A stretch of 64,000 bases of DNA from Tridacna crocea (taxonomy: Eukaryota; Mollusca; Bivalvia; Cardiida; Cardiidae). The notes below the pieces were generated by a model. It saw only the letters and a list, made by a program, of their open reading frames with translations. It was not told the DNA's origin and ran no database searches. The translations under genes were made by a program, and so were the position numbers. Of this stretch, positions 8,505-64,000 are shown piece by piece; position 1 is the first letter of the stretch, and every line of letters starts with the position of its first letter. The stretch covers positions 59,168,001 through 59,232,000 of the forward strand of contig OX031057.1 of the NCBI GenBank assembly GCA_943736015.1, read 5' to 3'.

Positions 8505-8942
8505 CTGTTAAGTATGAAATGTCAAATTGTTCTCATGAGCCGAATGACAAGTTCTATTCTTATCTTTGCATAGTTGCTTTAACTATTTGAAATTAAATTG
8601 GACATACACGACTTCATACCTTACAAATAAATGAACAGCTGAAGATTTGCTGCAAAAGTTTTAGCAGAAAAGGAATCATTGCTTTTGTTGCTTTGTTTTT
8701 TTTTCTAAATCGGACAAATATCCAAGAATATTAGTATTTGTAAGGAATTTCAGCGGGAAAATAGTTGAAGAATTAGGTTACATTTTCGATTTTGGCTGCA
8801 GGTAATGTAATTGTAATGTTGATTTTGTAAAAGCTCTATGAACCTTTTTGTACTGCCACTACCACTTTTAACCCTTGACCACAAAACCATGCGTTTTAAC
8901 TCTGACAACGAAAGAGGAGAAAATGCCGATGAACTGTATTTT

Positions 8943-9296
8943 CCCTTTTCTAGCTATCTTTTCAACCCTCTCACACACAGGTCTCGACATGTGACCAACA
9001 TTTGATTTTTCGTCTTTAGATACTGTCAATTTGGACGTGTCTAAAATTTTGCCGTATTTTCCCTTTTCTAGCTATCTTTTCAACCCTCTCACACACAGGT
9101 CTCGACATTTGACCAACATTTGATTTTTCATCTATAAATACTCTCAATTTGGACGAGTCTAAAATTTTGCCGTATTTTCCCTTTTCTAGCTATGTTTTCA
9201 ACCCTCTCACACACAGGTCTCGACATTTGACCAACATTTGATTTTTCATCTATAAATACTCTCAATTTGGACCAGTCTAAAGTTTTGCCGTCTGTT
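8943..9296. repeat. 118-bp tandem repeat, three copies
   Basis: Copies start at 8943, 9061 and 9179 with the word CCCTTTTCTAGCTATSTTTT. Units 2 to 4 have a single copy here, interrupted by a Family B MITE. Confidence 0.85.
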
Positions 9297-9712
9297 CAAA
9301 GAGGCTAAAGCAGTATCCTATCGTATGACGAACTAATGAGTTGTGTCAAGTAGATAATGAAATGTCTCTCGTCCCATATGCTATTATTTGACATAAAATT
9401 TTGCCTCCCGAGTGTACATACATTTTTTTCCCTCAACGATTTGACCCAATGATATACTTTTAGACCCAACCTAACCCATTTTCAGCTCAAGTAAAATACC
9501 ACAAAGACAAACATTCTTGCCAACTTTCATACAGATCAGAAACGTTTGATAAGGTGACTTAATTTTGGATCCCAAAATAAGAAATATAGTGGTAAGATAA
9601 TTGAAATATTGTTGCTAGTGGAAAAAAAAATCCCAAACACATTTTATCGGTTTTGCGATATTCTTCTCGATGCCACTGAAGTATATCATAATGTAAACAG
9701 TAGAGTTTAACA

Positions 9713-9746
<34 letters not shown>

Positions 9747-10232
9747 TTATTGCCAGATTTTTTTCCGCGTTGGTTCGAATCTTTTGCATTATTATATATC
9801 TTAATTTCGCATTCTAAAGTGTTTTTTTTTTTTTGGGTTATATGCACTTTTTCGCATTATCACATGTTTAAATTTGTTATTACGTGTATTTGAAATTCTT
9901 TTTACCTTCAAACAGATCCTTGTAAACTTTCGTGATATAGCACTAGAGAATTGTAATAAAAGTTAGCCTATCATTGCTATTCAAATATTTCTGGATACGG
10001 GATAAACACAAAAAAATTGAAAGAAACTGTTCTAGCTCTCATTCTCCTCTGTCAGGTTTACAATGCTGTCCCCAAACCTGAAAGAGCTACTTCTATAAAA
10101 CCAAATGCTACGTGTAGAAACAAGAAAAATAGGAAGAATTAAAACATTATAGTTGTACGGTCAGGTGGGAGGGCATTTGGAAACTTATTCACGGATGTGA
10201 TGAATAATGTCGCCCCGAGGCGAAGGCGAATC
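9297..10232. other. AT-rich intron segment, unit 1
   Basis: Holds the AAT microsatellite, T-runs near 9822-9834 and the left arm of the hairpin seen at 28-171 (10155-10232). No exon recognised. Confidence 0.55.
9716..9745. repeat. AAT microsatellite
   Basis: About ten AAT/ATA triplets. In the other units the corresponding tract is shorter and includes an AATAATATTATT turn. Confidence 0.9.
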
Positions 10233-11112
10233 TATTATGCTGCAAAGTTTTTACCATTCCAACGTGTGTTAAGCTAAATTTACCTTTTTTTTTGGTTTCA
10301 AAAATTGAGTACGCTGACGAAGTAGAATTTCCCTTCTGAGTGCCCCAATTCAATGAAAACTGACGTCACTAAAACCTTGGTAAAACGTGCAGTTTGGTGC
10401 ATGATCTTGATGTTAATCTTGATCGACGCCGCCATTTTCGATATTGTGTTAAAAGTGTAGCCATATACGGGGCTCTAAAAAGGGAAACTTACGGAATCCT
10501 GTTTCCGCCATCCACTTTTCGACCTACGAGGAACTCGAAAAGTAGAAATTAGGGATACTAACTTCCACTTTTCTAGCAAAAAGGTTACCTCGAAAAGTCG
10601 AAAAGTTGAAGTTTTTGACCTGACAATTGTCATAAAACTTTCCACTTTTCGACTTCACGTTTGTCTAGAAAAGTAGAAATTAGGAAGCACTAACTTCCAC
10701 ATTTCGCCTTAAAATGCTAGGTTGAAAAGTAGAAAAGTGGAATTTTTTCACATGACAATTGTCAATAAAAATTCCACTTTTCGACCTGAAAAGACAAAGT
10801 CGAAAAGTTGAAAAGTCGAAAAGTTGAAAGGTCGAAAAGTCGAAAAGTGGAAGTTAGCCGATTAAAACTTCCACTTTTCTAGTTAGGACTAATTTTTTGC
10901 AGGATAAATTGGTCGCGTTATTATTTTAAATGTACACCGGACAAAGGAAGATGGCGGGAGCGAATGGTAGAGGTTAAATGTACACCGAATAATTCTCATG
11001 TCAGCCATAATACGGCAACTCCCCAGTTTTCACTTTAAACCCGCTCTTATCGCATTGCTACGTCCTTCAGGCTTTAACGGTGTACACATTATTAGATGTA
11101 TTGAAATCACGT

Positions 11113-11353
11113 GGCCTGCAACACGCGAAAAGGGGCATACGGACATTTGCGTAAAGTGTCGCTTCGCATCAGCCCTCGCAGTTCGACACTTTCCGTTTTA
11201 TGTAATTTTCAATTTAGCGCAAGTCTACTGTGGCACAAAATCTAATGTGGTCTTAAAGTGCCGTGTCGGATCAGCCTGTAGGATCTGCGCAGGCTGATCC
11301 GAGACGACACATTATGGAAATGTCGGAATGCCCTTTTTCGCATATTGCAAGCC
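11113..11353. mobile_element. Family C MITE inside foldback element
   Basis: A 241-bp copy starting GGCCTGCAACACGCGAAAAG and ending GCATATTGCAAGCC, with the internal GATCTGCGCAGGCTGATC hairpin and the trailing GAGACGACAC word. Confidence 0.8.
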
Positions 11354-12077
11354 ATATATAGTTGATACTTTGGACACTGATTAGTCTTTAAAGTTTAAAG
11401 GACCCATTTCACCGAAAAATATTCCCTGAAGATTGAGTTGCTATCTCAAAATGTGGCTTGATCGCCGCTGATCGCAAGTAATCGGCGGTTGAACACACCT
11501 TGGTCTTCTGTAGTCGCACAAGGTCGACGGAAAGTATATGTCCCCCCCCCCCCAAAAAAAAAGATCGAAACTAGGTTTTTGACATGTCAAAAAACTAAGC
11601 TGCGACCTGTGCGATCTGGAAAATCGCATATAGATTGCCGAAAGATCATCCGTTAAACCATTTTTTGAGTGATCTCATCCAACTCGGATTTACTTTGAAA
11701 AAACCTGCTATAGGCGAAAAGTTTCAACATGGCACAATTCCTGCAGTCTGGCCAGATCGAGATGGTCCCTTTCCATGTGACGGGTTGCATATCATGAAAT
11801 GATACTACTAGACATTACTCAACCGAAATACCAACGCGGCAGATTCGGGGAGGTCATATTGATGTTAATGTAACAATGGGGAAAATATCGAGTTCCGAGG
11901 ACAGAAATCCGTAATCGAGTTTGGAGGACATAAGTCCATAATCGACTCCGATCAGCATCATAGATAGGCCTACATCGACATTTTTATTAACCTTACAAAG
12001 ATTATGAAGGATCCCAGTGCCCACGCCAAGCCAGTGTTCGAACCAGCGACCCAGATGTTGACAAGTCACACATTTTA

Positions 12078-12291
12078 ACCCATTAGCACACGATTCCTGT
12101 TTTTGACATTTTTGCAAAATATTATTTAGGAAAACATTGTTAAAAAAGGAGAAATAACTTTTTTCAAACTATTTCTCTCACAATGTTGCCTACTCTATAT
12201 TATACTTAGATTTCAATGCACACTTTGAAATGTCGTCTACAGTTTCTTTAAATTCGGACAGTCTTTTATTTTTTGTCATCTCGTAATGGAT
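12078..12291. mobile_element. Family B MITE nested in foldback element
   Basis: A 214-bp copy with ends ACCCATTAGC and CGTAATGGAT and TA flanks. Its core hairpin is eroded. It lies inside the foldback transposon and was probably carried in with it. Confidence 0.7.
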
Positions 12292-13016
12292 TAAACGTGG
12301 TTTGAACATGTCAAATTGGGCGCACGCTTGATGCGCAGTTCCTGACTAGATTTGTGTAACTATAAACTCGGCCCATAGGCAGTATCGGATAAAGATAGAC
12401 GTCAGACTTAAACAGTGTATACATGTTTTCTTATTCGGTGGAGGTTTAACTTTCACCGGGTCCAAATACGAAGGACCGGTGACACAGGCATTTTTACCCC
12501 TACACCGGCTCCAACTTTTCAACTTTTCGACTTTTCAACTTTGTCTTTTCTAGGTCGAAAAGTGGAAGTTTTATTGACAATTGTCATGTGAAAAACTTCC
12601 ACTTTTCTACTTTTCGACCTAGCATTTTAAGGCGAAAAGTGGAAGTTAGTGCTTCCTAATTTCTACTTTTCTAGACAAACGTGAAGTCGAAAAGTGGAAA
12701 GTTTTATGACAATTGTCAGGTCAAAAACTTCAACTTTTCGACTTTTCGAGGTAACTTTTTGCTAGAAAAGTGGAAGTTAGTATGCCTAATTTCTACTTTT
12801 CGAGTTCCTCGTAGGTCGAAAAGTGGATGGCGGAAACAGGATTCCGTAGAAACTGCCTTACGTTCGCCAGGGTACATGTTATGTATGTTCAGGACATAAA
12901 TTATTATCCAATCAGATCACAAGAAATGTCTTTGCAGTATGATAAGAATTCTTTTTCTGTATTCAACTTTCAATACCCATTTGATGCAGGCACTTTAGTC
13001 TTTTACCAAAGAATTA

Positions 13017-13202
13017 ACCCATTACCACACAATCCCTACTTTTGACGCCCCTGAGAAAGAAGCCTTTTGAAAACACTTTGGGAAAACACAGTGTTTTCTA
13101 CCCTTCTCAGAACAAATTTCAATTTTTCAGTCACCTTTATTTTGTCGTCTAGAAATGCTTTCAATTTGAACCAGTCTAAAATTTTTTCGTGTGGTAAAGA
13201 GT
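13017..13202. mobile_element. Family B MITE, unit 1 (core partly deleted)
   Basis: The left end is ACCCATTACCACACAATCCC and the right end is GGTAAAGAGT. The central hairpin is shortened to GGGAAAACACAGTGTTTTC. Equivalent copies start near 26005 and 38993, and again near 51985. A further decayed Family B-like segment follows to about 13380. Confidence 0.7.
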
Positions 13203-13472
13203 TCAACAATTAGAGTTCTCCAAATTAAAAGAATATGCTGACAGCAAATAACATGTAACTCAAAAAATGTGAAGTGTTTATAAAATGGCGGAAAACATGG
13301 TAGAAAGCCGAGAAAATGCTGGTGACACTTTCCTACAATGTTTTCGAAAGTCTTTCTCTCTCTTAAATTTCTAATAGAATAACTCTCTCTGATTCACTCG
13401 CATAATCCACCAGTATTAAATGCCATTACCACAAAATGAACTAAATAGGTATATTTCAACTAGCCAAAAGTC

Positions 13473-13505
13473 TGTTCTATTATTCTATTCTATTCTATTC
13501 TATTC
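13473..13505. repeat. ATTCT pentanucleotide microsatellite
   Basis: Six or so TATTC units. Units 2 to 4 keep only about three (for example 26467-26488). Confidence 0.85.
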
Positions 13506-13528
13506 TTTGTAAACTGGAAAGTGAAATG

Positions 13529-13650
13529 GATATTTAGCCATGCACTTTAAAAAGGAATTTTATGCATTTGCAAGAAATATCGGCCCAAGTCAGCCTAAGC
13601 AGTCCGAGCAGCATGACCTGTATCAAAATATTTTGGTAAACTTTCTGCGT
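13529..13650. mobile_element. Family H-like relic, unit 1
   Basis: The words AGCCATGCACTTTAAAAAGG, TATGCATTTGCA and GCCCAAGTCAGCCTAAGCAG resemble Family H, but the right end is lost. Another fragment of the family is at about 18990-19090. Confidence 0.45.
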
Positions 13651-13813
13651 GTCTATGGACCAAAATATCTCTGGATTCAGCAGATTGTTACACAAAATGG
13701 ATTGTATGGGTCAGAAATTATCTAATGACTTGCCTTATAATTATAAAGTATTGCTAAGATGCGTTTAAACTCCCTCCACCCCACACCCCCTTTGCCAGTG
13801 CAGGGCTCAAATA

Positions 13814-14072
13814 GCCTGCAACACGCGTAAAGGGACATTCGTAAATTAGCGTAAGGTGTCGTCTCGGATCAGCCTCCGCGCAGGCTAATCCGAAAGGACA
13901 CTTTCTGTTTTTAAGTAATTTTCTGTTTTGCGCTAGTTTACCGAAGAGCAAAATCTAATGTAGTCGTAAAGTGCCGTCTCGGATCAGCCAGCGCAGTGAT
14001 GCAGGTGATCTCAGACGGCACTTTATGACAATTGAGGCAAATGTCAGCATGCCCCTTTCGCGTGTTGCAAGC
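13814..14072. mobile_element. Family C MITE, unit 1
   Basis: Starts GCCTGCAACACGCGTAAAGG and ends CGCGTGTTGCAAGC. Two internal hairpins are present (CCTCCGCGCAGG; the second is degraded). It recurs near 26793, 39781 and 52773. Confidence 0.78.
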
Positions 14073-14224
14073 TGAATAAATATGCTATTTGTCTATATTT
14101 CTCTATACAAACTAAATCACTATTCTCTACCTTGACACTATACTAGACTAGATTTAAGACTCAGTCGTATGGGATACAGTTGCAGACGACAAATTCACTG
14201 TGACTCGAATGTGCGATTTGTCAA

Positions 14225-14697
14225 TAAATGTATTTATTATATACCTAGCAGTGAAATCCAGGAGTTTCCCAGTGTAATAAATTTTGATATCATCACTAGT
14301 GACGATATCAACTTTCACTTTCTGCCGTAATTTAGGAACTACTTTTTTTTCATTAAGCACTTATAGATAGTGTTAATTGTAAGTTCTATATTTTCAACGA
14401 GTAGTCCCGTTTTGTTCTTTTAAATTATGTATTCATCCGCACCATGTCCCTGACTTTTTTTTCTCTATCCAAAGTATTGATTTCGACTTTCAAACGAAAC
14501 ATTAAAAATAATAATTTCAAAAAGGTGTATAATAAATAAAATAATCAACTGGTTATTTTTTATATGAAAAATATCTCTTTCGGATGGGTGGTAAGGCGTT
14601 AAAAAAACTCGTGCTGCGCACTCGTTTTTTAACGCCTAACAACGCATCCTCGTGAGATATTTTTCATATAGAAATATGCAGTTGATTATCCTCTATA
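14225..14697. mobile_element. Family F repeat, unit 1 (body plus hairpin)
   Basis: The hairpin at about 14541-14693 and a body with CCTAGCAGTGAAATCC at its left edge both match 4625-4984, with about 100 bp extra between them. It recurs in all units near 27204, 40192 and 53184. Confidence 0.7.
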
Positions 14698-14757
14698 GAA
14701 TATATTGTTAGAAAACTAGATAATGATATGTAGTACTCTGGTCTATCCACTGATTTA

Positions 14758-14980
14758 ACTCATTACCAAATAACAATATTTTTGGCTTGTCCAAATCGAA
14801 AGTGTTTGCAGACGACAAAATAAAAGTGACTGAAAATTTGAAATTTGTTTTGTGAAGGTTAGAAAACATTGTGGGAAAAGGAGAAAATGCTGGTGACCAA
14901 CACTTTCTCCTTTTCCCACAATGTTTTCTATAGGCGTCTTTCTCAGGGGCGTCAAAGGTAGGGATTGTGTGTTAATGGGT
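14758..14980. mobile_element. Family B palindromic MITE with TA flanks, unit 1
   Basis: A 223-bp copy with TA on both sides. Its core near 14861-14932 has GAAAACATTGTGGGAAAAGG on both strands. It recurs at the same place in units 2 to 4 (near 27743, 40731 and 53722). Confidence 0.8.
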
Positions 14981-15273
14981 TAAATGTATAGGTTGTGTTT
15001 GTATAAGGGGACACTTATACTGCCTTGCTATAGCGCAAGCTATACATTTATATCAATCTGTGGGAAAGACTAGAGTATTACAGATAATACATAGCATTTA
15101 CTCTATTTCTGGGTGGCATTTCCAAAACGTCTTCATCAACAAGGAAACACACAACTATTTGCTAAAGGGTCAAACCAAATGGCTATTCTACATTATAAAT
15201 TATCAAAATTCTAGTCTATTCTCTATCCTCTTCGCAAACCAAGGCTGACGATTCACTACGCTACTCCACCCTC

Positions 15274-15673
15274 ATCTTCGCTAGCCAAGTTTACGATCAC
15301 TACGTGGATCTTACCTTGGCTGATTGAGCCCGATTTCGAGATTCCTTCTATGCGCCCTCTATTGGATGCTGGTTATTACGCCCCTTTACATCATATTTCT
15401 AAAAGCAAATGAAGTATCGTTTTACAAACCGTTTATGATTACACATGAAGCGATAAGCAGACATCCACGTAAGTTTCCGTGTTTTACCTTTTATTCAAAA
15501 GGTAGAGACTTTGTTCTATTTTTATCAAAGATGAAATGCTACGAGCGATTTCATTCGTTGCAGCTAGAGCTGGATGCATCCAATTAAAAAGCGTATCGGG
15601 TGAACGTAAAAATCAAGCTCGATCCGCCAAGGTAAGATCCACGTAGTGATAGTAAACTTGGCTCGAAAAGATG
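15274..15673. mobile_element. Family E MITE, unit 1 copy a
   Basis: A 400-bp copy starting CATCTTCGCTAGCCAAGTTT and ending CTTGGCTCGAAAAGATG. A left-end fragment of the family also lies at about 15226-15273. It recurs near 28259 and in units 3 and 4. Confidence 0.72.
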
Positions 15674-16047
15674 CTATACCCTTGGTGGATCAAGATTGAT
15701 TTTTACATTCCCCCGATACACTTTTTTATTGGATGCAGCCAGCTCCAACTACAACGAATGAAATCGCTAGTAGCATTTCATCTTTGATAAAAATAGAATG
15801 AGGTTGCGGCCTTTCGAATAGAAGGTAAACATGGAAACGCACGTCGATATCTGCCTATCGCTTCATGTTGAATAAATGTATTCGTAAGTGGTTTGTAAAA
15901 TGATATTTCATTGGCTTTCAGAAATATTATGTAAAGGGGGATATTAACCAGCATCCAATAGAAGGCGCATCGCAGGAATCTCGAAATCAGGTTCAATCAG
16001 CCAAGGTAAGATCCACGTAGTGATCGTAACCTTGGCTCGCAAAGATG
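15671..16047. mobile_element. Family E MITE, unit 1 copy b
   Basis: Abuts copy a and ends ACCTTGGCTCGCAAAGATG. Its left end is shortened (ATGCTATACCCTTGGTGG). Confidence 0.7.
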
Positions 16048-16279
16048 ATTCTCTATCTTCATTTTGTACCAGTTCGTGGAGGTCTTGTGGGTCGTGTGGG
16101 TCTCCTTCTTGTGGTAGTTAATACAGTTGTAAGTGTTGGGTTCTCTGGTGTGGGTAAGGTTCCACTACTGCCTATACATACATACAAGCATTTTGGCTTT
16201 TTAAAGGGGAATTAAACCTGATTACTTTTCTAAGATATCTCAACAAAGACTTCATTCTAATGCAAAGATGGTCTTAGAC

Positions 16280-16502
16280 CTTTCGAAAAGAAAAACATCC
16301 CTGGTTTTTACGACCCCGGGATGAAAGCTTTTGAAAACTTTGTGAAAAAAGGAGAAAATGCAGGTAACCAGCATTTTCTTCTTTTCCACAATATTTTCAA
16401 CCCTATTGGAAACAACTTTCAATTTTTGAGTTGCATTTATTTTGTCGTCTGCAAATGCTTTCAATTTGGACAAGTCTAAAATTTTGTCGTCTGGTAAAGA
16501 GT
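16280..16502. mobile_element. Family B MITE, unit 1
   Basis: The core GAAAATGCAGG/TAACCAGCATTTTC near 16354-16377 and the right end GGTAAAGAGT identify it. The left end is eroded, so the start is approximate. It recurs near 29265, 42253 and 55244. Confidence 0.65.
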
Positions 16503-16939
16503 TAAGCTTACATATATGGAGAAATAAATGCCGAAAGCACAAAGAATTACCTTTTTGTGTGTGTGTTTTGTAGGCCTATTCAAATTTAAGAAAAACAAAA
16601 TCTCCCAAAAATGTTGTTTTCTCGGGACTGTGAACTGTTTGCGATGGAAAAAGTAGTGCACATCGTCTTCGACGGCGTATTGGAGAAAACAGGTGCAATC
16701 CAACAAATATAATTGGAAAAGAGGTCTCACTTCAGATCTAATGTATTTGTTACGAATTCTTGTGTGGATTACAGAGAACTTGCGTTGCACAAAGAAGAAA
16801 TAGCGTAAAACTACGAACACTTTTTCTTTGAACTTAAAGTTTTGCGGGAAAAAAATTTATGAAAATAGTCAATTTTATAGTTCGAGAATGATAACTCTGC
16901 TACTATAATTTGAGAACCTGAAAAGAATACCATCAGATT
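16503..16939. other. intron segment without recognised repeat, unit 1
   Basis: A 33-codon plus-strand frame (MLFSRDCELFAMEKVVHIVF...) and a 114-codon minus frame overlap here. Neither has domain support, and the minus frame is broken by single-base indels in the other units (71 codons there). Confidence 0.4.
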
Positions 16940-17790
16940 AAGTGAAAATGTTTGACTCAAGAAATAATTTTCTTTCTAACATGGTTAATCGTTCAATAAA
17001 GCACATCTGTGAGTTACGAGGAAAATAAAATCCACGAGTGCGATGGCCCGAGTGGGTTATCCATTGCGCCTCATAATTCACAACGTGGTTTATTGAACGT
17101 TCTAACATGACACCCGAATTCGGCTCTATAATCACAGTGCAAGGAAAGCGTGGTAAAATCTGCGACAATCAATGTAGAGTGACGTCATTCTGCATCAAGT
17201 GACGTCGTTCAGTGAGTGAGTTATTCAATGGAACATAATCTTCATCCGCCTATTTACTCTAAGTTTGAACTTGTTTTCCTTTCATTAAGAATTTGTCATA
17301 TTAGAATCGAAATAATCTTCTTTCTATCGTGGGTTATCGTTAAATAAACCACGTTGTGAGTTATAAGGCGCAATGAGTAAACCACTGGGGCTATCGCCAT
17401 CGTGGATTATCTATTGTGCCTCATAACTCACAACTGTGGTTTATTGAACGATAAACCACGATAGAAAGAAGATTATTTCACAAACAAACCATGATAGAAA
17501 GAAGATTATTTCGATTCTAACATGGTCAACTCTTTGTCCAAGAGAAACAAGTTCAAACGTAGATGTAGATTATATGTCATTGAATAACGTATAAATTTAA
17601 AAGAATAACGTCACTCTATATAGAATCACGTCATCCTACATAGAATAACATGGATTTTACCACGGTTTCGATAAACTCTGAAGCCGAATTCACGCGTCAA
17701 GTTAGAATTAGGAAATAATTTTCTTTCTATCGTGGTTTATAGTTCAATAAACCATAGTTGTGAGTTATGAGGCACAATCAATAATCCACT
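16940..17790. repeat. Family G compound inverted repeats with TGACGTC words
   Basis: A full hairpin at about 17319-17482 (TATCGTGGGTTATCGTTAAA facing GAACGATAAACCACGATAG) is flanked by two half copies at about 16955-17090 and 17705-17790. Between them are segments with GTGACGTCATT-type words and a GGATTTTACCACG stretch. It recurs in units 2 to 4 with several small differences. Confidence 0.65.
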
Positions 17791-17905
17791 TTGGCGATCA
17801 CTAACAGCCTTTGGTAATCAAAAAGGATGAACTTTCACGGTAAAAACAGAAAACATGTAGCTCTAGATCCATCAAGTACAAACTTATCTGCAGTTCTCGA
17901 AATGG

Positions 17906-18173
17906 TCAGCGACACGCAAAAAGGGGCATTCAGAAATTTGAATAAAGTGTCATCTCGGATCCGAGTACACAGCAGGGGCAGGCTAATCCAAGACGGCACT
18001 TTCCTTTTTTTATGTAGGCCTAATTTTCTGTTTTTTGCGCAAGTCTTAAGAAGAACAAAATTTGATGTGGTCGTAAAGTGCCGTCTCGGATTAGCCTGGA
18101 CGGACTGTGCAGGCTGTTCCAAGACGACACTTTACGCAAACGTCCGAATGCTCCTTTTAGCGTGTTGAAGGCC
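17906..18173. mobile_element. Family C MITE, unit 1
   Basis: Left end CAGCGACACGCAAAAAGGGG, right end TAGCGTGTTGAAGGCC. Internal hairpin around GCCTGGACGGACTGTGCAGG. The unit 2 copy near 30900-31150 has a 7-bp deletion that units 1, 3 and 4 lack. Confidence 0.78.
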
Positions 18174-18286
18174 AAATGATATATGAAAACAGCTCAGGGG
18201 AGACAAGTCAAAGTGATTCTTCCACCTCGTCAATTCCTTCCTGAATAATATCTCATCGGCCATACCTTATCTTATATCAGAAATGT

Positions 18287-18536
18287 CCTGCAACACGGGA
18301 AAAGGGGCATTCGGACATTTACGAAAAGTGTCGTCTCGGATCAGTCCGCTCAAGCTAATCCGAGACGACACTTTATCTTTTTTATGTGATTTTCTGTTTT
18401 CTGCAAGTCTGCTGTAGCACAAAATCTGATGTAGCCGTAAAGTGCTGTCTCGGATTGGCCTGCATGGACTGAGCATGATGCTCTGAGACGACATCTTACG
18501 CATATGTCCGAATGCCCCCCTTTGCGTGTAGCAAGC
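18287..18536. mobile_element. Family C MITE, unit 1, second copy
   Basis: A 250-bp copy starting CCTGCAACACGGGAAAAGGG and ending TTTGCGTGTAGCAAGC, 113 bp from the preceding Family C copy in the same orientation. It recurs in every unit. Confidence 0.78.
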
Positions 18537-18607
18537 AAAATATTGTTGTTATTGTTATTGTTGTTGATGATGATGTGGACTTGATTTATCGTCTGTAGAG
18601 ATTTAAT

Positions 18608-18985
18608 TAAGAAACAGTCTTCTTCCTATCGTGGTTTATCGTTCAATAAACCACAGTTGTGAGTTATGAGGCACAATAAATAATGCACGATGGCGATAGC
18701 CCGAGTGGTTTATTCATTGCGCCTAAAAACTCACAACGTGGTTTATTGAAAGATAGAAAGAAGATTATTTCGATTCTAATATGGCCAATTCTTAATGAAA
18801 GGAAAACAAGTTCAAAGTTAGAGTAAAAATGCGGATGAAAATTATGCTCCATTGAATAACTCACTCATTGAATGACGTCACTCGATATAGAATGACGTCA
18901 CTCTACATGGATTGTCGCAGATTTTACCACGCTTTCCTTGCACTGAGTTTATAGAGCCAAAGTCGCGTGCCGTGTTAGAATATTT
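18608..18985. repeat. Family G hairpin plus CRE-like direct repeat
   Basis: A hairpin at about 18627-18768 is followed by two copies of GAATGACGTCACTC (18869-18901, one slightly altered) and the GATTTTACCACG segment. The same order occurs in 16940-17790. Confidence 0.65.
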
Positions 18986-19228
18986 AATTAGTCCATTCAG
19001 CCCATGATCTGTCAAAAAACAACGACATCATGCATCTGCAAAAAGTATCGATTCTTATCAGCTCTCGCAGTCCGCGTAGGCTGAAATGGGTTAAGCGTTT
19101 TAACTATAGGTAAATATCCTGCACGTCGAAAAAGCATTCTACCCCACGATACAGTTGGTTGAGGGACAAAATTGATTTAATGTATCCATGCGATGACTTG
19201 CCAAGTACAATAAGCTACGGAGATGCGT

Positions 19229-19417
19229 TAATATCGTTAGCATTTACAGACGACAAAATAAATGTGACTGAAAAATTGAAATTTGGTTTGGGAAGGGTTA
19301 AAAAAATTGTGGGAAAAGGAGAAAATGCTGTTACCAGCACTTTCTCCTTTTCCCACAATGTTTTCAGAAGGCTTCTACCTCTGTTTCGTAAAAACCTGAG
19401 AGTTTTTGGTAACGGGT
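19229..19417. mobile_element. Family B MITE beside exon FC2, unit 1
   Basis: The core near 19309-19364 pairs GTGGGAAAAGGAGAAAATGC with its inverse, and the right end is GGTAACGGGT. Its edge is 73 bp from the FC2 donor. Copies are present in all four modules. Confidence 0.7.
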
Positions 19418-19489
19418 TACGCCCCTTTTTGACAGTGCATGGCTCAGTTCTATATTCCATCACTTTCATGAGAAACAAATCATATTTAC

Positions 19490-19625
19490 CTCTGTCAAAG
19501 CAGCCGATGATACGTAGAGTAATATTCATACTGCTTTCATAAGGAAGTTTGTGCACAGTTATTCTGAACTTGGTGTATCCGTTTTGTGGTGGGTTAACAA
19601 TGGCCGTGTCATTAAAGTCATAAGT
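19490..19625 (-). CDS. exon FC2, module 1: C-terminal half of discoidin-like domain
   Basis: This 136-nt exon has acceptor TTGTTCTGCAG and donor G|GTAAAT, phase 0 in and phase 1 out. It reads TYDFNDTAIVNPPQNGYTKF, then RITVHKLP and ends NITLRIIGCF. The pattern of a C-terminal beta strand rich in Ile/Arg/Val followed by LR-x-x-x-GC matches the end of discoidin/F5-8 type C-like folds. It carries two N-glycosylation sequons (NDT, NIT). The last G plus AA from the following mucin exon makes a Glu codon, keeping the frame into the Thr-rich region. Confidence 0.8.
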
Positions 19626-19750
19626 CTGCAGAACAATATTCAATCCTTATTTATAACAGCAAGAAATAGATGATATATCTATATATATTTTTTTTCGGTG
19701 AAAGATTGAAATTTATTTCATCGAATGAGCATCATCGGTAATATTTTTAC

Positions 19751-19882
19751 GTCTGTTGCACAAAATCTGATGTAGTTGTGAAGTGCCATCTTGGATTAGC
19801 CTGCGCGGACTGCACAGGCTGATCATAGACGACACCTTATGCAAATGTCCTTTCGAATATCCCTTTTCGCGTGTTGCAGACC
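19751..19882. mobile_element. Family C MITE, right half only
   Basis: Only the second half is recognisable, from GTTGCACAAAATCTGATG to CGCGTGTTGCAGACC, with hairpin GCCTGCGCGGACTGCACAGG. It lies in the FC1-FC2 intron of every module. Confidence 0.7.
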
Positions 19883-20009
19883 AATTTATTGCCCTTAAAT
19901 GACGTGTTATTATAATCCTTTTTTAAATAGTACTATCATTATGTTTTGTTTAGTCAAGAATATGTTTAAAATATATCTTGAATTTCAGCCAATGTGCTAA
20001 ACTGAGACC

Positions 20010-20245: not shown

Positions 20246-20255
20246 AACAGCGTTA

Positions 20256-20478: not shown

Positions 20479-20724
20479 TAAGCACTATACCATCAATTAA
20501 TATTGATGAACATGCTCAAGATCTCGTGTTACATAAGATATCAATACTTTCGCCATTCTATAATGATTTCAGTGCATTTGAATGTTATGAATAATTTGAC
20601 GGTTTCAGCAAAACTTTCAGGATTATATTTTATAATGAGAGAGAAAAGGTTGTTCTTTAGACTGTGTAATATCACTGGTGTTCAATTCGCAAAATTTTTC
20701 CTTAAATTTCAGTTGTCGACTTAC

Positions 20725-52800: not shown

Positions 52801-55800
52801 ATTTGCGTAAGGTGTCGTCTCGGATCAGCCTCCGCACAGGCTTATCCGAAAGGACACTTTCTGTTTTTAAGTAATTTTCTGTTTTGCGCTAGCATATCGA
52901 AGAACAAAATCTAATGTAGTCGTAAAGTGCCGTCTCGGATCAGCCAGCGCAGTCCGCAGAGGGTGATCCCAGATGGCACTTTATGACAGTTGAGGCAAAT
53001 GTCAGCATGCCCCTTTCGCGTGTTGCAAGCTGAATAAATATGCTATTTGTCTATCTTTCTCTATACAAACTAAATCACTATTCTCTACCTTGACACTATT
53101 CTAGACTAGATTTAAGACTCAGTCGTATGGAATACAGTTGCAGACGACAAACTTACTGTGACTCGAATGTGCGATTTGTCAATAAATGTATTTATTATAT
53201 ACCTAGCAGTGAAATCCTGGAGTTTCCCAGTGTAATAAATTTTGATATCATCACTAGCGACGATATCAACTTTCACTTTCATTTCCTGCCGTAATTTAGG
53301 AACTACTTTTTTTTCATTAAGCACTTATAGATAGTGTTAATTGTAAGTTCTATATTTTCAACGAGTAGTCCCGTTTTGTTCTTTTAAATTATGTATTCAT
53401 CCGCACCATGTCCCTGACGTTTTTTTCTCTATCCAAAGTATTGATTTCGACTTTCAAACGAAACATTAAAAATAATAATTTCAAAAAGGTGTATAATAAA
53501 TAGAATAATCAACTGGTTATTTTTTATATGAAAAATATCTCTTTCGGATGGGTGGTAAGGCGTTAAAAAAACTCGTGCTGCGCACTCGTTTTTTAACGCC
53601 TAACAACGCATCCTCGTGAGATATTTTTCATATAGAAATATGCAGTTGATTATCCTCTATAGAATATATTGTTAGAAAACTAGATAATGATATGTAGTAC
53701 TCTGGTCTATCCACTGATTTAACTCATTACCAAACAACAATATTTTTGGCTTGTCCAAATCGAAAGTGTTTGCAGACGACAAAATAAAAGTGACTGAAAA
53801 TTTGAAATTTGTTTTGTGAAGGTTAGAAAACATTGTGGGAAAAGGAGAAAATGCTGGTGACCAGCACTTTCTCCTTTTCCCACAATGTTTTCTATAGGCG
53901 TCTTTCTCAGGGGCGCCAAAGGTAGGGATTGTGTGTTAATGGGTTAAATGTATAGGCTGTGTTTGTATAAGGGGACACTTATACTGTCTTGCTATAGCGC
54001 AAGCTATACATTTATATCAATCTGTGGGAAAGACTAGAGTACTACAGATAATAAACAGCATTTACTCTATTTCTGGGTGGCATTTCCAAAACGTCTTCAT
54101 CAACAAGGAAACACACAACTATTTGCTAAAGGGTCAAACCAAATGGCTATTCTACATTATAAATTATCAAAATTCTAGTCTATTCTCTATCCTCTTCGCA
54201 AACCAAGGCTGACGATTCACTACGCTACTCCACCCTCATCTTCGCGAGCCAAGTTTACGATCACTACGTGGATCTTACCTTGGCTGATTGAGCCCGATTT
54301 CGAGATTCCTTCTATGAGCCCTCTATTGGATGCTGGTTATTACGCCCCTTTACATCATATTTCTAAAAGCAAATGAAGTATCGTTTTACAAACTGCTTAC
54401 GATTACACAAGAAGCGATAAGCAGACATCCACGTAAGTTTCCATGTTTTACCTTTTATTCAAAAGGTAGAGACCTTGTTCTATTTTTATCAAAGATGAAA
54501 TGCTACGAGCGATTTCATTCGTTGCAGCTAGAGCTGGATGCATCCAATGAAAAAGCGTATCGGGTGAACGTAAAAATCAAGCTCGATCCGCCAAGGTAAG
54601 ATCCACGTAGTGATAGTAAACTTGGCTCGAAAAGATGCTATACCCTTGGTGGATCAAGATTGATTTTTACATTCCCCCGATACACTTTTTTATTGGATGC
54701 AGCCAGCTCCAACTACAACGAATGAAATCGCTAGTAGCATTTCATCTTTGATAAAAATAGAATGAGGTTGCGGCCTTTCGAATAGAAGGTAAACATGGAA
54801 ACGCACGTCGATATCTGCCTATCGCTTCATGTTGAATAAATGTATTCGTAAGTGGTTTGTAAAATGATATTTCATTGGCTTTCAGAAATATTATGTAAAG
54901 GGGGGTATTAACCAGCATCCAATAGAAGGCGCATCGCAGGAATCTCGAAATCAGGTTTAATCAGCCAAGGTAAGATCCACGTAGTGATCGTAACCTTGGC
55001 TCGCAAAGATGATTCTCTATCTTCATTTTGTACCAGTTCGTGGAGGTCTTGTGGGTCGTGTGGGTCTCCTTCTTGTGGTAGTTAATACAGTTGTAAGTGT
55101 TGGGTTCTCTGGTGTGGGTAAGGTTCCACTACTGCCTATACATACATACAAGCATTTTGGCTTTTTAAAGGGGAATTAAACCTGATTACTTTTCTAAGAT
55201 ATCTCAACAAAGACTTCATTCTAATGCAAAGATGGTCTTAGACCTTTCGAAAAGAAAAACATCCCTGGTTTTTACGACCCTGGGATGAAAGCTTTTGAAA
55301 ACTTTGTGAAAAAAGGAGAAAATGCAGGTAACCAGCATTTTCTTCTTTTCCACAATATTTTCAACCCCTTTGGAAACAACTTTCAATTTTTGAGTTGCAT
55401 TTATTTTGTCGTCTGCAAATGCTTTCAATTTGGACAAGTCTAAAATTTTGTCGTCTGGTAAAGAGTTAAGCTTACATATATGTAGAAATAAATGCCGAAA
55501 GCACAAAGAATTATCTTTTTGTGTGTGTGTTTTGTAGGCCTATTCAAATTTAAGAAAAACAAAATCTCCTAAAAATGTTGTTTTCTCGGGACTGTGAACT
55601 GTTTGCGATGGAAAAAGTAGTGCACATCGTCTTCGACGGCGTATTGGAGAAAACAGGTGCAATCCAACAAATATAATTGGAAAAGAGGTCTCACTTCAGA
55701 TCTAATGTATTTTTTACGAATTCTTGTGTGGATTACAGAGAACTTGCGTTGCACAAAGAAGAAATAGCGTAAAACTACGAACACTTTTCTTTGAACTTAA

Positions 55801-58454
55801 AGTTTTCGCGGGAAAAAAATTTATGAAAATAGTCAATTTTATAGTTCGAGAATGATAACTCTGCTACTATAATTTGAGAACCTGAAAAGAATACCATCAG
55901 ATTAAGTGAAAATGTTTGACTCAAGAAATAATTTTCTTTCTAACATGGTTAATCGTTCAATAAAGCACATCTGTGAGTTACGAGGAAAATAAAATCCACG
56001 AGTGCGATGGCCCGAGTGGGTTATCCATTGCGCCTCATAATTCACAATGTGGTTTATTGAACGTTCTAACATGACACCCGAATTCGGCTCTATAATCACA
56101 GTGCAAGGAAAGCGTGGTAAAATCTGCGACAATCAATGTAGAGTGACGTCATTCTGCATCAAGTGACGTCGTTCAATGAGTGAGTTATTCAATGGAACAT
56201 AATCTTCATCCGCCTATTTACTCTAAGTTTGAACTTGTTTTCCTTTCATTAAGAATTTGTCATATTAGAATCGAAATAATCTTCTTTCTATCGTGGGTTA
56301 TCGTTAAATAAACCACGTTGTGAGTTATAAGGCGCAATGAGTAAACCACTGGGGCTATCGCCATCGTGGATTATCTATTGTGCCTCATAACTCACAACTG
56401 TGGTTTATTGAACGATAAACCACGATAGAAAGAAGATTATTTCTCAAACAAACCATGATAAAAAGATTATTTCGATTCTAACATGGCCAACTCTTTATCC
56501 AAGAGAAACAAGTTCAAACGTGGAGTGAAAACGCGGATGCAGATTATATGTCATTGAATAATGTATAAATTTTACAGAATGACGTCACTCTATATAGAAT
56601 GACGTCATCCTACATAGAATAACATGGATTTTACCACGGTTTCAATAAACTCTGAAGCCGAATTCACGCGTCAAGTTAGAATTAGGAAATAATTTTCTTT
56701 CTATCGTGGTTTATAGTTCAATAAACCATAGTTGTGAGTTATGAGGCACAATCAATAATCCACCTGGGCGATCACTAACAGCCTTTGGTAATCAAAAAGG
56801 ATGAACTTTCACGGTAAAAACAGAAAACATGTAGCTCTAGATCTATCAAGTACAAACTTATCTGCGGTTCTCGAAATGGTCAGCAACACGCAAAAAGGGG
56901 CATTCAGAAATTTGAGTAAAGTGTCATCTCGGATCCGAGTACGCAGCTGGGGCAGGCTAATCCAAGACGGCACTTTCCTTTTTTATGTAATTTTCTGTTT
57001 TGCGCAAGTCTTAAGAAGAACAAAATTTGATGTGGTCGTAAAGTGCCGTCTCGGATTAGCCTGGACGGACTACGCAGGCTGTTCCAAGACGACACTTTAC
57101 GCAAACGTCCGAATGCTCCTTTTAGCATGTTGAAGGCCAAATGATATATGAAAACAGCTCAGGGGAGACAAGTCAAAGTTATTCTTCCACCTCGTCAATT
57201 CCTTCCTGAATAATATCTCATCGGCCATACCTTATCTTATATCAGAAATGTCCTGCAACACGGGAAAAGGGGCATTCGGACATTTACGAAAAGTGTCGTA
57301 TCGGATCATTCCGCTCAAGCTAATCCGAGACGACACTTTATTTTTTTTAAGTGATTTTCTGTTTTCTGCAAGTCTGCTGTAGCACAAAATCTGATGTAGC
57401 CGTAAAGTGCTGTCTCGGATTGGCCTGCATGGACTGAGCATGATGCTCTGAGACGACATCTTACGCATATGTCCGAATGCCCCCCTTTGCGTGTAGCAAG
57501 CAAAATATTGTTGTTATTGTTATTGTTGTTGATGATGATGTGGACTTGATTTATCGTCTGTAGAGATTTAATTAAGAAACAGTCTTCTTCCTATCGTGGT
57601 TTATCGTTCAATAAACCACAGTTGTGAGTTATGAGGCACAATAAATAATGCACGATGGCGATAGCCCGAGTGGTTTATTCATTGCGCCTAAAAACTCACA
57701 ACGTGGTTTATTGAAAGATAGAAAGAAGATTATTTCGATTCTAATATGGCCAATTCTTAATGAAAGGAAAACAAGTTCAAAGTTAGAGTAAAAATGCGGA
57801 TGAAAATTATGCTCCATTGAATAACTCACTCATTGAATGACGTCACTCGATATAGAATGACGTCACTCTACATGGATTGTCGCAGATTTTACCACGCTTT
57901 CCTTGCACTGAGTTTATAGAGCCAAAGTCGCGTGCCGTGTTAGAATATTTAATTAGTCCATTCAGCCCATGATCTGTCAAAAAACAACGACATCATGCAT
58001 CTGCAAAAAGTATCGATTCTTATCAGCTCTCGCAGTCCGCGTAGGCTGAAATGGGTTAAGCGTTTTAACTATAGGTAAATATCCTGCACGTCGAAAAAGC
58101 ATTCTACCCCACGATACTGTTGGTTGAGGGACAAAATTGATTTAATGTATCCATGCGATGACTTGCCAAGTACAATAAGCTACGGAGATGCGTTAATATC
58201 GTTAGCATTTACAGACGACAAAATAAATGTGACTGAAAAATTGAAATTTGGTTTGGGAAGGGTTAAAAAAATTGTGGGAAAAGGAGAAAATGCTGTTACC
58301 AGCACTTTCTCCTTTTCCCACAATGTTTTCAGAAGGCTTCTACCTCTGTTTCGTAAAAACCTGAGAGTTTTTGGTAACGGGTTACGCCCCTTTTTGACAG
58401 TGCATGGCTCAGTTCTATATTCCATCACTTTCATGAGAAACAAATCATATTTAC
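49801..58454 (-). other. 8.65-kb transposon-rich intron of unit 4
   Basis: Same element order (Family B 50340-50564, Family K 51552-51912 and so on). Private single-base changes are scattered through it. No extra exon was recognised. Confidence 0.7.
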
Positions 58455-58590
58455 CTCTGTCAAAGCAGCCGATGATACGTAGAGTAATATTCATACTGCT
58501 TTCATAAGGAAGTTTGTGCACAGTTATTCTGAACTTGGTGTATCCGTTTTGTGGTGGGTTAACAATGGCCGTGTCATTAAAGTCATAAGT
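58455..58590 (-). CDS. exon FC2, module 4
   Basis: Same 136-nt exon and peptide as the other modules. The surrounding intron has private single-base changes, for example in the Family C palindrome at about 58730 (TCGGATG for TCTGATG), so it is a distinct copy. Confidence 0.78.
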
Positions 58591-59689
58591 CTGCAGAACA
58601 ATATTCAATCCTTATTTATAACAGCAAGAAATAGATGATATATCTATATATATTTTTTTTCGGTGAAAGATTGAAATTTATTTCATCGAATGAGCATCAT
58701 CGGTAATATTTTTACGTCTGTTGCACAAAATCGGATGTAGTTGTGAAGTGCCATCTTGGATTAGCCTGCGCGGACTGCACAGGCTGATCATAGACGACAC
58801 CTTATGCAAATGTCCTTTCGAATATCCCTTTTCGCGTGTTGCAGACCAATTTATTGCCCTTAAATGACGTGTTATTATAATCCTTTTTTAAATAGTACTA
58901 TCATTATGTTTTGTTTAGTCAAGAATATGTTTAAAATATATCTTGAATTTCAGCCAATGTACTAAACTGAGACCAAGCCTGATAAATAGCTAAATCAGTA
59001 AGTCAACTGTAGGAGCTGAAACCAGGAGGTCACCAGTTCGACTATCGGCTCTGCCAATTTCTTTCCAAGAACTGCTGATAGTCGGCCCTCTGACAGGGCT
59101 GAACATTGGTTCAACGGTTGTGTTTTAGAGAAGCCAGTGGCTTGGGTAGGAAATTGTGCGAGGTATACTAGCCAAAAAGAAACCCCAGGACAACAAGTGA
59201 ATGCAGCGAAAACAGCGTTAACCCATTACCACACAATCCCTACATTTGACGACCCTGAAAAAGACGGCTTTAGAAAACATTGTGGGAAAAGGAGAAAATG
59301 CTGGTAACCAGCATTTTCTTCTTTTCCCACAATGTTTTCCACCCTTCACAAAACAAATATCAAATTTTCAGTCACTTTCATTTTGTCGTCCACAAATGCT
59401 TTCAATTTGGACAAGCCTAAAATATTGTCGTCTGGTAATGAGTTAAGCACTATACCATCAATTAATATTGATGAACATGCTCAAGATCTCGTGTTACATA
59501 AGATATCAATACTTTCGCCATTCTATAATGATTTCAGTGCATTTGAATGTTATGAATAATTTGACGGTTTCAGCAAAACTTTCAGGATTATATTTTATAA
59601 TGAGAGAGAAAAGGTTGTTCTTTAGACTGTGTAATATCACTGGTGTTCAATTCGCAAAATTTTTCCTTAAATTTCAGTTGTCGACTTAC

Positions 59690-59970
59690 CGTTAAATATG
59701 GATCTAAAGACATCCACTTTCCAGCGCTGGTCTGATAGTCAATTGTAAACTTGTATACGCCTTCATTTTGACCAAGCCCAAAACTGTATACTTTATCCAC
59801 TCTAAGAACTGTGATTTCTACCGTAAATGTATTGGAAAACACGACTAGTCCATTTCCAGATACTCTCAGGTCTTCTTTGTACGGATTTAGTGAACTGTCA
59901 CTTGTAATGTTGATATCCCCATTTCTAATTGTATTGTTATCATCCATCCCGTCTTGTTCAACACATGGCG
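59690..59970 (-). CDS. exon FC1, module 4
   Basis: A 281-nt exon, phase 1 to 0, with predicted peptide equal to modules 1 and 3. The four N-glycosylation sequons of the FC1+FC2 pair (NNT, NIT, NDT, NIT) are conserved in all modules. Confidence 0.78.
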
Positions 59971-60073
59971 CTATTAAAATAGAAACGAGTAATGCTTCGT
60001 GAAAAAGTAAATTGTATAAAACTAACTTTTCCAAGAGTTTTGCATAAAGACATATTACAATGACCTGTCTTCA

Positions 60074-60120
<47 letters not shown>

Positions 60121-61779
60121 AGTTGCTTTCTTTTTTTATGTAATCATTACTTTCTCATCAAATAAGAAGGTCATTCAAATGGGTTTGTTGTTTTTCTTAT
60201 TAATCGTATAGCAAACGACAAAATTTTAGCACTGTCAAAATGTCAGCAATGTGTGGTATAAGGTTAAAGTGTTTTAAAATAAAAACTTCCTGGCTGTGTT
60301 ATTCAGCGGGAAATATCAATTCAGTTTTAGGATTCACATTGAACCGATTTGATTGTTTATCATTTATTCTGTCCCTATTTCGTGATACGTTTCCAAGTTT
60401 ACAGAACTGAGGATACATATAAGATCTTCTATGGACTTTTTCTACACATGATTTTTCAAAGTATACTTTAGATAAGGACATGACGTTTCAAATTGTGCTT
60501 GAGAAGCCGTGATAAAAAGCTCTAATACACATTAATAATGTTGATTCTCACAGTATTATAAAGTGTTGATTTGTCTGCTGAAGGATGCTGTGGCCTCGTC
60601 CAAAATATAGTCTGGTTTCTACAGTGTACTCAACCAATAGAATTCAGTATTGTACACAAGCATGTTAAATAACCTCATAGTATCGAACATTTGTGAGACA
60701 TTCTGTGACTGAAGGTCCTACGCGGAATACTGGCACCACCCCAGGCTCTTGCTGTGGTGCTACAGGAGGAATGGAAACTGGTTCCTTAGCTCCAATGTGC
60801 GATGCCAGTGCAAGTTCTTATTTGCCACTGAAGAGGGACACACTTGTTACTGAAGAGGTATTTTGAAAAGTTTCGTCTTCCATACGTGACTTTTGAGGCT
60901 AACATAAGAAGGGACTTACGTAAATTTCATTAGACATTCAAACGAATTGAATTTCATGCAATGCATTTCCTTAGGCTTGTTCATGACTGTGTTTTGCATA
61001 AATAACAGGGAATTCTCTGTGGACCGTTATTTTGCGAAAAAGCTCTTGACTCCTGGAGTACTTGACATAGTGCCACAACAAGGATATTACTACTATCAAG
61101 CTAAAGGAAACATCTATTTCAAGCCATGAAATGTATCTAATGAAATAAACTAAAATGAATATTTGTTCGTATTGGTATTTTTTGTTCCATGGTGTACTAA
61201 GATTTCCTTAACCTCCTTTTTTTGCCTATAAAGTTCTATAAAATGCCAAGCTTTCAATTTAACTTAAAGACTAGGCTATTTACAAATCTTTTAGTATTGT
61301 GTGTGCGCTTTTCTTAATAACATTGATCTGAAGGTCTCTACGGAGAAATATTAAGGCAGTGGCCCCGTAATACTTCTAGTACAGCATGGCATAAAATTTC
61401 TTGACAGCTCATAGAGACAGTTCTATACAGATATAACACTTTTGCACATTTTCAACCGACCAGAAATTTCTTCGATATCTATCTTGAAATTATCTGTTGA
61501 TACTTTTATCAGTTTCCAGAAAAAGGAGGTAGTAATCACATCCCTTTGCAATGAGAATATAGCAGTTTTAGATTTATAAATGATAATTCTAGGAAGGACA
61601 AAAAGGAAAAAGTGGCCCTGTGAAAGCAGTACAATAATACTCATTTTTAATTTTAGCAAATTTTGTAGGATAGTATTACAAAGTAAATGGCTGTTTTCTA
61701 TTACGGGTCAACTACGTTAATGCATCCTAAAGGAGCTAATCTAATAATAATAATAACAATAATAATAAAAACTTATTAC

Positions 61780-62778
61780 TGGTAATTGTTTCTGTGATTG
61801 TAGAGGGCGAAGAGGAAGTTGGGGTTGTAGCAGAATATGGTGATGTCACTGTAGTTGGTGTTGTCGCTGTTGTGGGTGATGTAGCCGTTGACGCCGTTGT
61901 CACTGTTGTAGGTGATGTAGCCGTTGATGTTGTTGTCACTGTTGTCGGTGATGTAGCAGTTGACGCCGTTGTCACTGTTGTCGGTGATGTAGCCGTTGAC
62001 GCCGTTGACGCTGTTGTCGGGGATGTAGCCGTTGATGGTGTTGTCACTGTTGTGGCTGATGTAGCAGTTGACGCCGTTGTCACTGTTGTCGGAGATGTAG
62101 CCGTTGACGCCGTTGTCACTGTTGTCGGTGATGTAGCCGTTGACGCCGTTGTCACTGTTGTCGGTGATGTAGCAGTTGACGGTGTTGTCACTGTTGTGGA
62201 AGATGTAATCGTTGACGCCGTTGTCACTGTTGTCGGTGATGTAGCCGTTGAGGGTGTTGTCCCTGTTGTCGGTGATGTAGTCGTTGACGATGTTGTCGGT
62301 GACGTAACCGTTGACGCTGTCGTCACTGTTGTCGGTGACGTAGCCGTTGACGCTGTCGTCACTGGTGTCGGTGACGTAGCCGTTGAGGGTGTCGTCACCG
62401 TTGTGGGAGATGTAACCGTTGACGCAGTTGTCACCGTTGTCGTTGATGTAGCCGTTGACGGTGTAGTCGCGGTTGTCGGTGATGTAACCGTTGACTGTGT
62501 TGTCGCTGTTGTCGGCGATGTAGCCGTTGACGATGTTGTCGGCGATGTAGCCGTTGACGCTGTTGTCACTGTTGTCGGTGATGTAGCCGTTGAGGGTGTT
62601 GTCACTGTTGTGGGAGATGTAACCGTTGACGGCGTTGTCACTGTTGTCGGTGACGTAGCCGTTGACGCTGTTGTCACTGTTGTGGGAGATGTAGCCGTTG
62701 ACAGTGTAGTCACTGCTGTTGAAGATGTTGTTGATGAAGTTGTTGTCACTGCTGTGGTGGTTCCAGTTGTTGTAATTT
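61780..62778 (-). CDS. exon: mucin domain, module 4 (most N-terminal in window)
   Basis: A 999-nt phase 1-1 exon. Its total length equals module 1 but for a different reason. It has the STASTA-type insertion and, next to it, has lost a VTT triplet (SPTTASTAST). It also has one P-to-A change in the repeat tract. This mix of shared and private changes points to recurrent slippage or exchange inside the coding minisatellite. It enters in phase 1, so the next exon to the right, outside the window, should end in phase 1, as FC2 does. Confidence 0.83.
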
Positions 62779-64000
62779 CTGTTAAGTATGAAATGTCAAA
62801 TTGTTATCATGTAATACAATAAGCCGAATTACAAATTCTATTCTTATCTTTGCATAATCGCTTTACCTATTTGAAATTAAATTGGACATACACGACTTCA
62901 TACCTTACTAATAAATAAACAGCTGGAGATTTGCTGCAAAAGTTTTAGCAGAAAGGGAATCACTGCTTCTGTTGCACTGTTTTCAAATCGGCCGAATATC
63001 CAAGGATAATAGTATTTGCAAGGAATTTTAGCAGGAAAATAGCTGAATAATTAGGTTACATTTTCGATTTTGGCTGAAAGTAATGTAATCGTGATGTTGA
63101 TTTTGTAAAAGCTCTATGACTTTTTTGTACTGCCACTACCACTTTTAACCCTTGACCACAAAACCTTGCCTTTTAACTCTGACAAAGAAAACCTGTGAAA
63201 AACTTGTGGAAAGAGGAGAAAATGCCGATGACCTGCATTTTCCCTTTTCTAGCTATGTTTTCAACCCTCTCACACACAGGTCTCGACATTTGACCAACAT
63301 TTGATTTTTCATCTATAACTCATTACCAAACAACAAAATTTTAGGTCTGACCAAATTGAATGCATTTGCAGACTAGAAAATAAAAGTGACTGAAAATTTG
63401 CATTTTGTTTTGTGAAGGATAGAAAAACATTGTGGGAAAAAGAGAAAATGCGGGTTACCAGCATTTTCTCCTCTTCCCATAATATTTTCTAAAGGCTTTT
63501 TTTCTCAGGGGGGTCAAAAGTAGGGATTGTGTGGTAAAGGGTTAAATACTCTCAATTTGGACGAGTCTAAAATTTCATATCGTATCGTATCCTATCGTAT
63601 GACGAACTAATGAGTTGTTTCAAGTAGATAATGAAATGTCTCTCGTCCCATATGCTATTATTGGACAGAAAATTTTGCCTCCCGAGTGTACATACATTTT
63701 TTTCCCCAACGATTTGACCCAGTGATCTACTTTTAGACCCAACCTAACCCATTTTCAGCTCAAGTAAAATACCACAAAGACAAACATTCTTGCCAACTTT
63801 CATGCAGATCAGAAACGTTTGATAAGGTGACTTAATTTTTGATCCCAAAATAAGAAATATAGTGGTAAGATAATTGAAACACTTTTGCTAGTGGAAAAAA
63901 AAATTGCTAGATCTAGTGACAAAAAAAAAAAAAAAAAAAAAATCCCAAACACATTTTATCGGTTTTGCGATATTCTTCTCGATGCCACTGAAGTATATCA
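62779..64000. repeat. start of a further tandem unit, cut by window end
   Basis: This matches the first 1.2 kb of units 2 to 4, including the same TA-flanked MITE (63318-63542) and a poly-A tract near 63921-63942. The array therefore continues to the right and the true copy number is unknown. Confidence 0.9.

Follow-up and report, generated by a model that had tools for sequence, protein, structure and literature searches.

How does a gene for a mucin-like protein grow, and can it do so by whole modules of introns and exons? The question is raised by a stretch of 64,000 nucleotides from the bivalve Tridacna crocea (assembly GCA_943736015.1, contig OX031057.1, positions 59,168,001 to 59,232,000 of the forward strand; the whole stretch is called the window below), in which the original prediction had seen a 13-kb module of three exons copied in tandem, and in frame, inside one mucin gene. 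When the window was compared with itself, a single alignment of 38,227 bp was obtained between 12849-51020 and 25837-64000 (offset 12,988, 99.3% identity), together with further self-alignments at offsets of 25,976 and 38,968, so that chance is not an issue as the source of the 13-kb repeat. From about 12.85 kb onwards the window is filled by the head-to-tail array, which consists of four units with a period of 12,988-12,992 bp. We numbered these U1 to U4 in the order of the gene, which lies on the minus strand: U1 (51817-64000; 12,184 bp, incomplete since it is truncated at the window end), U2 (38825-51816; 12,992 bp), U3 (25837-38824; 12,988 bp) and U4 (12849-25836; 12,988 bp). The 1,222 bp preceding the first exon of U1 match the module intron at 99.8-99.9% identity, so the array extends by at least part of a further unit past the window end, and the total copy number, at least four, probably varies.

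All four units carry the same three exons on the minus strand, in the phases that had been claimed: a Thr/Ser/Pro-rich mucin exon (M, phase 1-1), followed by FC1 (281 nt, phase 1-0) and FC2 (136 nt, phase 0-1). The M exons lie at 61780-62778 in U1 (999 nt), 48793-49800 in U2 (1008 nt), 35794-36801 in U3 (1008 nt) and 22819-23817 in U4 (999 nt); the FC1 exons at 59690-59970, 46699-46979, 33704-33984 and 20725-21005; and the FC2 exons at 58455-58590, 45464-45599, 32469-32604 and 19490-19625, respectively. Together the three exons encode 472, 475, 475 and 472 amino acids in U1 to U4, free of stops, and in each of the four units the module is entered and left in phase 1, making it phase-symmetric. 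The repeat units hold complete introns as well as exons, as in genes with intragenic tandem multi-exon modules. The stalk encoded by the U1 M exon is 333 amino acids long (49.5% Thr, 18.6% Ser and 9.9% Pro, with no Cys), and mucin-type tandem repeats of 27 and 36 nt are found in the large exons, where Thr, Ser and Pro make up 78% (U1 M) and 71% (the terminal mucin exon, below) of residues. A gain of about 472 amino acids of stalk plus a domain for each copy had been predicted; this figure holds for the module as a whole but not for its composition, as 472 residues divide into about 333 of stalk and 139 of the FC domain.

Downstream of the array, the gene model continues through four further minus-strand exons: a terminal mucin/VWC-like exon (6776-8504; 1729 nt, phase 1-2), a second VWC-like exon (4121-4167; 47 nt, phase 2-1, NGCQT|CVCEDYELNCADKVPC) and two TSR-like exons (2927-3073; 147 nt, and 1005-1148; 144 nt, both phase 1-1). 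Each of the 16 modelled exons is preceded by AG and followed by GT and matches its neighbour in phase, and the spliced model reads through 2,583 amino acids with no stop. FC2 exits in phase 1, and an identical acceptor sequence leads, again in phase 1, into the next M exon as well as into the terminal exon (8504-6776). The phases and the shared acceptor support the claim that any number of copies could splice in frame, both into the next module and into the final mucin/VWC exon. Taken together, these data make it likely that the locus is a single minus-strand gene for a mucin-like protein of at least four stalk-plus-FC modules, which would have grown by tandem duplication of the cassette followed by unequal exchange. 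In the product, at least four copies of a Thr-rich stalk with its Cys-bracketed FC domain would be followed by a longer stalk, also Thr-rich, and then by a VWC-like module and TSR-like modules. The protein is probably secreted, and its stalks may be glycosylated.

The copies differ in age. U1, U2 and U3 are separated pairwise by 14, 18 and 21 substitutions in 12-13 kb (0.11-0.17%), while U4 differs from each of them by 131-133 substitutions (1.0-1.1%). U4 alone differs at 119 sites. The older part of the last intron, 12849-18385, contains 111 of them (2.0%), the segment 18386-21829, which spans FC2 and FC1, contains none, and the other 8 lie beyond it. We read this gradient, with its sharp boundary, as a sign that the M, FC1 and FC2 exons of U4 were recently exchanged with other units, leaving an older last intron.

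The near-identity of the central units (99.8-99.9% for U1-U3) is also what would be seen if the assembler had multiplied one or two true units or laid haplotypes in tandem. Such arrays can be misassembled, and in the zonadhesin paper the collapse of a third repeat is considered. We nevertheless regard an artefact of this kind as unlikely. The differences among U1-U3 amount to substitutions at 24 sites, 15 of which are transitions, plus 6 indel events, and include in-frame changes in M. The three units are therefore unlikely to be plain assembler copies, even though 3 of the 6 indels fall in simple runs, a frequent place for errors. Since U4 is plainly distinct from the other copies and is bordered by a partial one of greater age, at least two units seem safe.

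This older partial copy forms the end of the last intron (8505-10483, minus strand), which aligns with 23818-25836 at an identity of 0.91-0.97 in 9 of 11 windows; the remaining two, located at a 118-bp tandem array, show 0.79 and 0.47. When the first 1.2 kb are aligned globally, with the tandem array included, the identity is 83.5-83.6%. The homology takes in the acceptor and continues for 11 bases, all identical, into the terminal mucin exon, and the DNA alignment continues through the mucin repeats to 7505/22821 (78.7% overall). Past those 11 bases the similarity may be due to shared repeats alone. The 118-bp array itself (8936-9291) comprises three units with 96% matches and, among tandem repeats scoring at least 100, was listed in the last intron only. 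Within the otherwise older copy, 82 bp (9174-9255) are identical to 24276-24357, perhaps a small conversion patch.

Between the older copy and U4 lies a transposon-like insertion with terminal inverted repeats (10490-12848; 2,359 bp), which is present in the last intron only and on account of which the near-identity of the array appears to start at 12849. Its terminal inverted repeats align over 338 columns at 97% and each contain 132-bp tandem repeats, it is flanked by a 6-bp target duplication (GAAACT), and its longest stop-to-stop frame is 108 amino acids. At all three unit junctions inside the array the site is empty.

These observations suggest a history in which FC1 and FC2 of the ancestral gene would have had a mucin exon on either side, the repeats of the two being similar. 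The first duplication would most likely have come about by mispairing of these two flanking mucin exons, and later unequal exchange between whole 13-kb units would have amplified and homogenised the centre of the array. Unequal exchange would leave just such a pattern as the abrupt boundary of U4 near 18.39 kb and a homology that ends in the terminal mucin exon.

Several points weigh against this account. The gene model was built from genomic sequence, and the start of the gene falls outside the window. Splice sites were chosen by eye with phase considered, so that the fit of the phases is partly non-independent. FC matches no Pfam family above the cut-off, and within the mucin repeats the end of homology with the terminal copy cannot be placed. 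When donors were scored on U4 with a human donor matrix, those of FC1 and FC2 ranked 1 and 9 among the 668 GTs of the unit, and the M donor, CCA|GTAATA, was weak (-3.4, rank 197 of 668). It is the sole phase-1 GT in the M frame past the first 300 nt; if it is not used, each M exon reads to a stop following SNKFLLLLLLLLLLD, a poly-Leu stretch.

A further weak donor belongs to a candidate fourth exon, E4, which lies between FC2 and the next M in all four units (55034-55135 in U1, 42043-42144 in U2, 29055-29156 in U3 and 16070-16171 in U4, minus strand). E4 is 102 nt long, phase 1-1, open in the sense of the gene and Thr/Pro/Arg-rich (GSSGTLPTPENPTLTTVLTTTRRRPTRPTRPPRT), and its donor, GTACAA, scores -2.2 (rank 132 of 668, same matrix and unit), a further point on the debit side. 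A first scan for exon candidates, with an overly strict acceptor rule, gave nothing and missed E4 as well. In a looser scan, E4 was the sole Thr/Ser/Pro-rich candidate in eight region-strand scans covering the U4 introns, the insertion and the tail, and a Markov control modelled on 12849-22700 gave such a candidate in 1 of 300 sequences; as the looser thresholds were chosen after E4 had been seen, this result is not independent. The sequence features of E4 are suggestive, and it may be a real exon. With or without it the module stays phase 1 to phase 1, E4 adding 34 amino acids.

The weak M donor and the way in which these frames end bear on a different reading, in which every unit of the array is transcribed on its own, as a small separate gene or isoform that ends either in M, at the stop beyond the poly-Leu residues, or in E4. 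The M frame closes about 42 nt past its donor, and that of E4 meets a TGA 8 nt beyond the donor proposed for it, as this reading would have it. Against this, the frame fits through four units into the VWC- and TSR-like exons, and no signal-peptide-like first exon was found on either strand of 23850-32468 by the criteria used, in a scan without a positive control. We therefore judge separate genes improbable, and retain the model of a single gene spliced across its units. Because every module runs from phase 1 to phase 1, the gain or loss of a unit in such a gene would change the length of the protein by 472-475 amino acids (34 more if E4 is used) with no frameshift.

What, then, is the domain that is copied along with the stalk? 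FC (FC1 plus FC2) is a Cys-bracketed domain of 139 amino acids with four N-x-S/T sites in U1. It had been labelled discoidin-like, and three sequence tests gave no support to this label. Pfam returned no F5/8C match at E-values up to 10 (HMMER filters on). A profile hidden Markov model of five vertebrate F5/8C domains scored FC at -0.8 bits, a score reached or exceeded by 619 of the 1852 reported shuffles (2000 made), and hhalign against four vertebrate F5/8C domains gave a probability of 0.2%, both of these home-made profiles being narrow. The resemblance to F5/8C seen by eye (Cys at both ends, FTIDY...GKW, TLRIIGC) is a lead only. A match of FC to Golvesin_C (E 0.08) was taken as chance. The fold predicted for FC1 alone (AlphaFold, aligned with the homologue described below) had a predicted local distance difference test score of 42 and was of no use, and a search of solved structures found no relatives of FC (best E 0.44).

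A homologue search with FC yielded one match among 5 candidates, P0001, with 67% identity across 61% of FC; a search with the FC2 frame found none. P0001 is 88 amino acids long and has 2 member sequences on 2 public contigs, the longest of about 6.06 Mb; its contig might even be the chromosome that contains the window. The residues at the U4 FC1 donor, YLT|VS, recur in it as YQTVS. Its last residues, TVS, fall where the T of FC1 adjoins the donor GTAAGT, itself readable as VS, so that the place of the donor has probably been kept.

That a relative of FC1 exists on public contigs, and that the array is known from genomic sequence, would fit a scenario in which the units are decaying copies of a living gene elsewhere. 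This we consider very unlikely, as all 12 module exons are open and the coding exons vary less between copies than the rest (9 of 1416 sites, as against about 1.16%), a difference much of which may be explained by the exchange boundary and not by selection.

At the 3' end of the proposed gene, the VWC-like Cys pattern (NGCQTCVCEDYELNC) is completed across the intron by the 47-nt exon, in a comparison made by eye with VWC modules. The VWC piece gave no match to Pfam VWC, and a match to Urm1 (E 0.3) was taken as chance; when residues 500-586 of the M/VWC frame were used in a homologue search, none of the 308 candidates had E<=0.001. The first TSR-like repeat matched TSP1_spondin (E 3.1e-5, 24.6 bits, cut-off 41) and TSP_1 (19.3 bits, cut-off 21.6), and TSP matches were confined to this repeat. 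A Pfam search of 1-26002, translated in its three minus-strand frames, listed TSP1_spondin (E 0.005) and otherwise only Ribosomal_L22e, a whole-sequence match below the cut-off with no stretch passing, which was taken as chance. On the plus strand, antisense to the mucin exons, are open frames of 360-470 amino acids with VVGDVAVDAVV-like repeats (7178-8590, 22779-23861, 35754-36845, 48753-49844 and 61740-62822), probably a by-product of repeat lengths in multiples of three.

How does this array compare with known genes? As in-frame copying of a cassette, the interpretation in the original prediction stands in its central part, the phase-symmetric duplication of whole introns and exons, and falls short in its discoidin assignment and in calling such growth unusual. 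This last was overstated, because several well-studied genes, among them LPA (KIV-2), NEB (TRI), DMBT1 and zonadhesin, grew in similar ways. In the human LPA kringle IV-2 variable number tandem repeat, each kringle has two short exons, a unit measures 5.6 kb, and an allele carries 1 to about 40 units (PMC11462820). There, too, whole intron-exon units stand in tandem in one gene for a secreted protein, and copy number sets protein length. The array described here differs in its 13-kb units, its three or four exons and the mucin stalk in each unit, is known from one sequence, and has unrelated domains. Zonadhesin (ZAN) belongs to a mosaic gene family with mucin repeats and was lengthened by tandem intragenic duplication: in the mouse, a two-exon segment is present in 20 copies, and zebrafish has three blocks, each about 5 kb long and 85-87% identical to one another, with 17 exons per group and a phase-1 intron on either side. 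In zonadhesin it is the VWD domains that were copied, whereas here the mucin stalk is included, and the identity between units is about 99% or more. In nebulin TRI, an eight-exon block of 10 kb is repeated three times within the gene and varies in copy number (PMC9109913). It resembles the present array as a multi-exon block tandemly repeated inside one gene, but nebulin is a muscle protein, whose gene normally has three copies per allele and becomes pathogenic when it departs from this by two or more (PMC9109913). DMBT1 (salivary agglutinin, gp340) is a secreted epithelial glycoprotein with tandem SRCR units, 7 to 20 domains per molecule (PMC4851238); its domains differ, and copy-number variation has been measured in DMBT1 while here we infer it. 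A literature search aimed jointly at intragenic tandem duplication, mucin exons and molluscs returned no paper, and we do not claim that the gene is unpublished. The mode of growth is thus already known, and what sets this array apart is the size of the unit, the presence of a mucin stalk within it, and its recency.

The locus leaves the general picture of how such genes grow unchanged, and offers a recent, clean example of a mucin-like gene whose protein became longer as modules were copied, in which the old edge, the sharp boundary and the near-identical centre can still be read. The divergence of only 0.11-0.17% between U1, U2 and U3 makes copy-number variation between individuals likely, and the array would permit a direct test of whether a mucin can vary in length by whole stalk-plus-domain units and not by short repeats only. 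More tentatively, and with somewhat less than even confidence, we suggest that the array is actively expanding and contracting, having been seeded at mucin exons with variable number tandem repeats and homogenised by exchange, that individuals differ in module number, and that FC lies outside known families.

Rfam (at gathering scores) and ARAGORN found no match in the window. The introns of all four units contain a 380-bp inverted repeat, its arms about 89% identical (17100-17479/18611-18980, 30085-30464/31590-31959, 43073-43452/44585-44954 and 56064-56443/57576-57945). A family of short, mostly palindromic repeats resembling miniature inverted-repeat transposable elements occurs in both orientations, with six members in U4 and matches in every other unit and in the tail (3348-3522, 3450-3626, 4347-4567, 13014-13203, 14755-14983, 16333-16505, 19243-19419, 20253-20481 and 24355-24584, and corresponding places in U1-U3).

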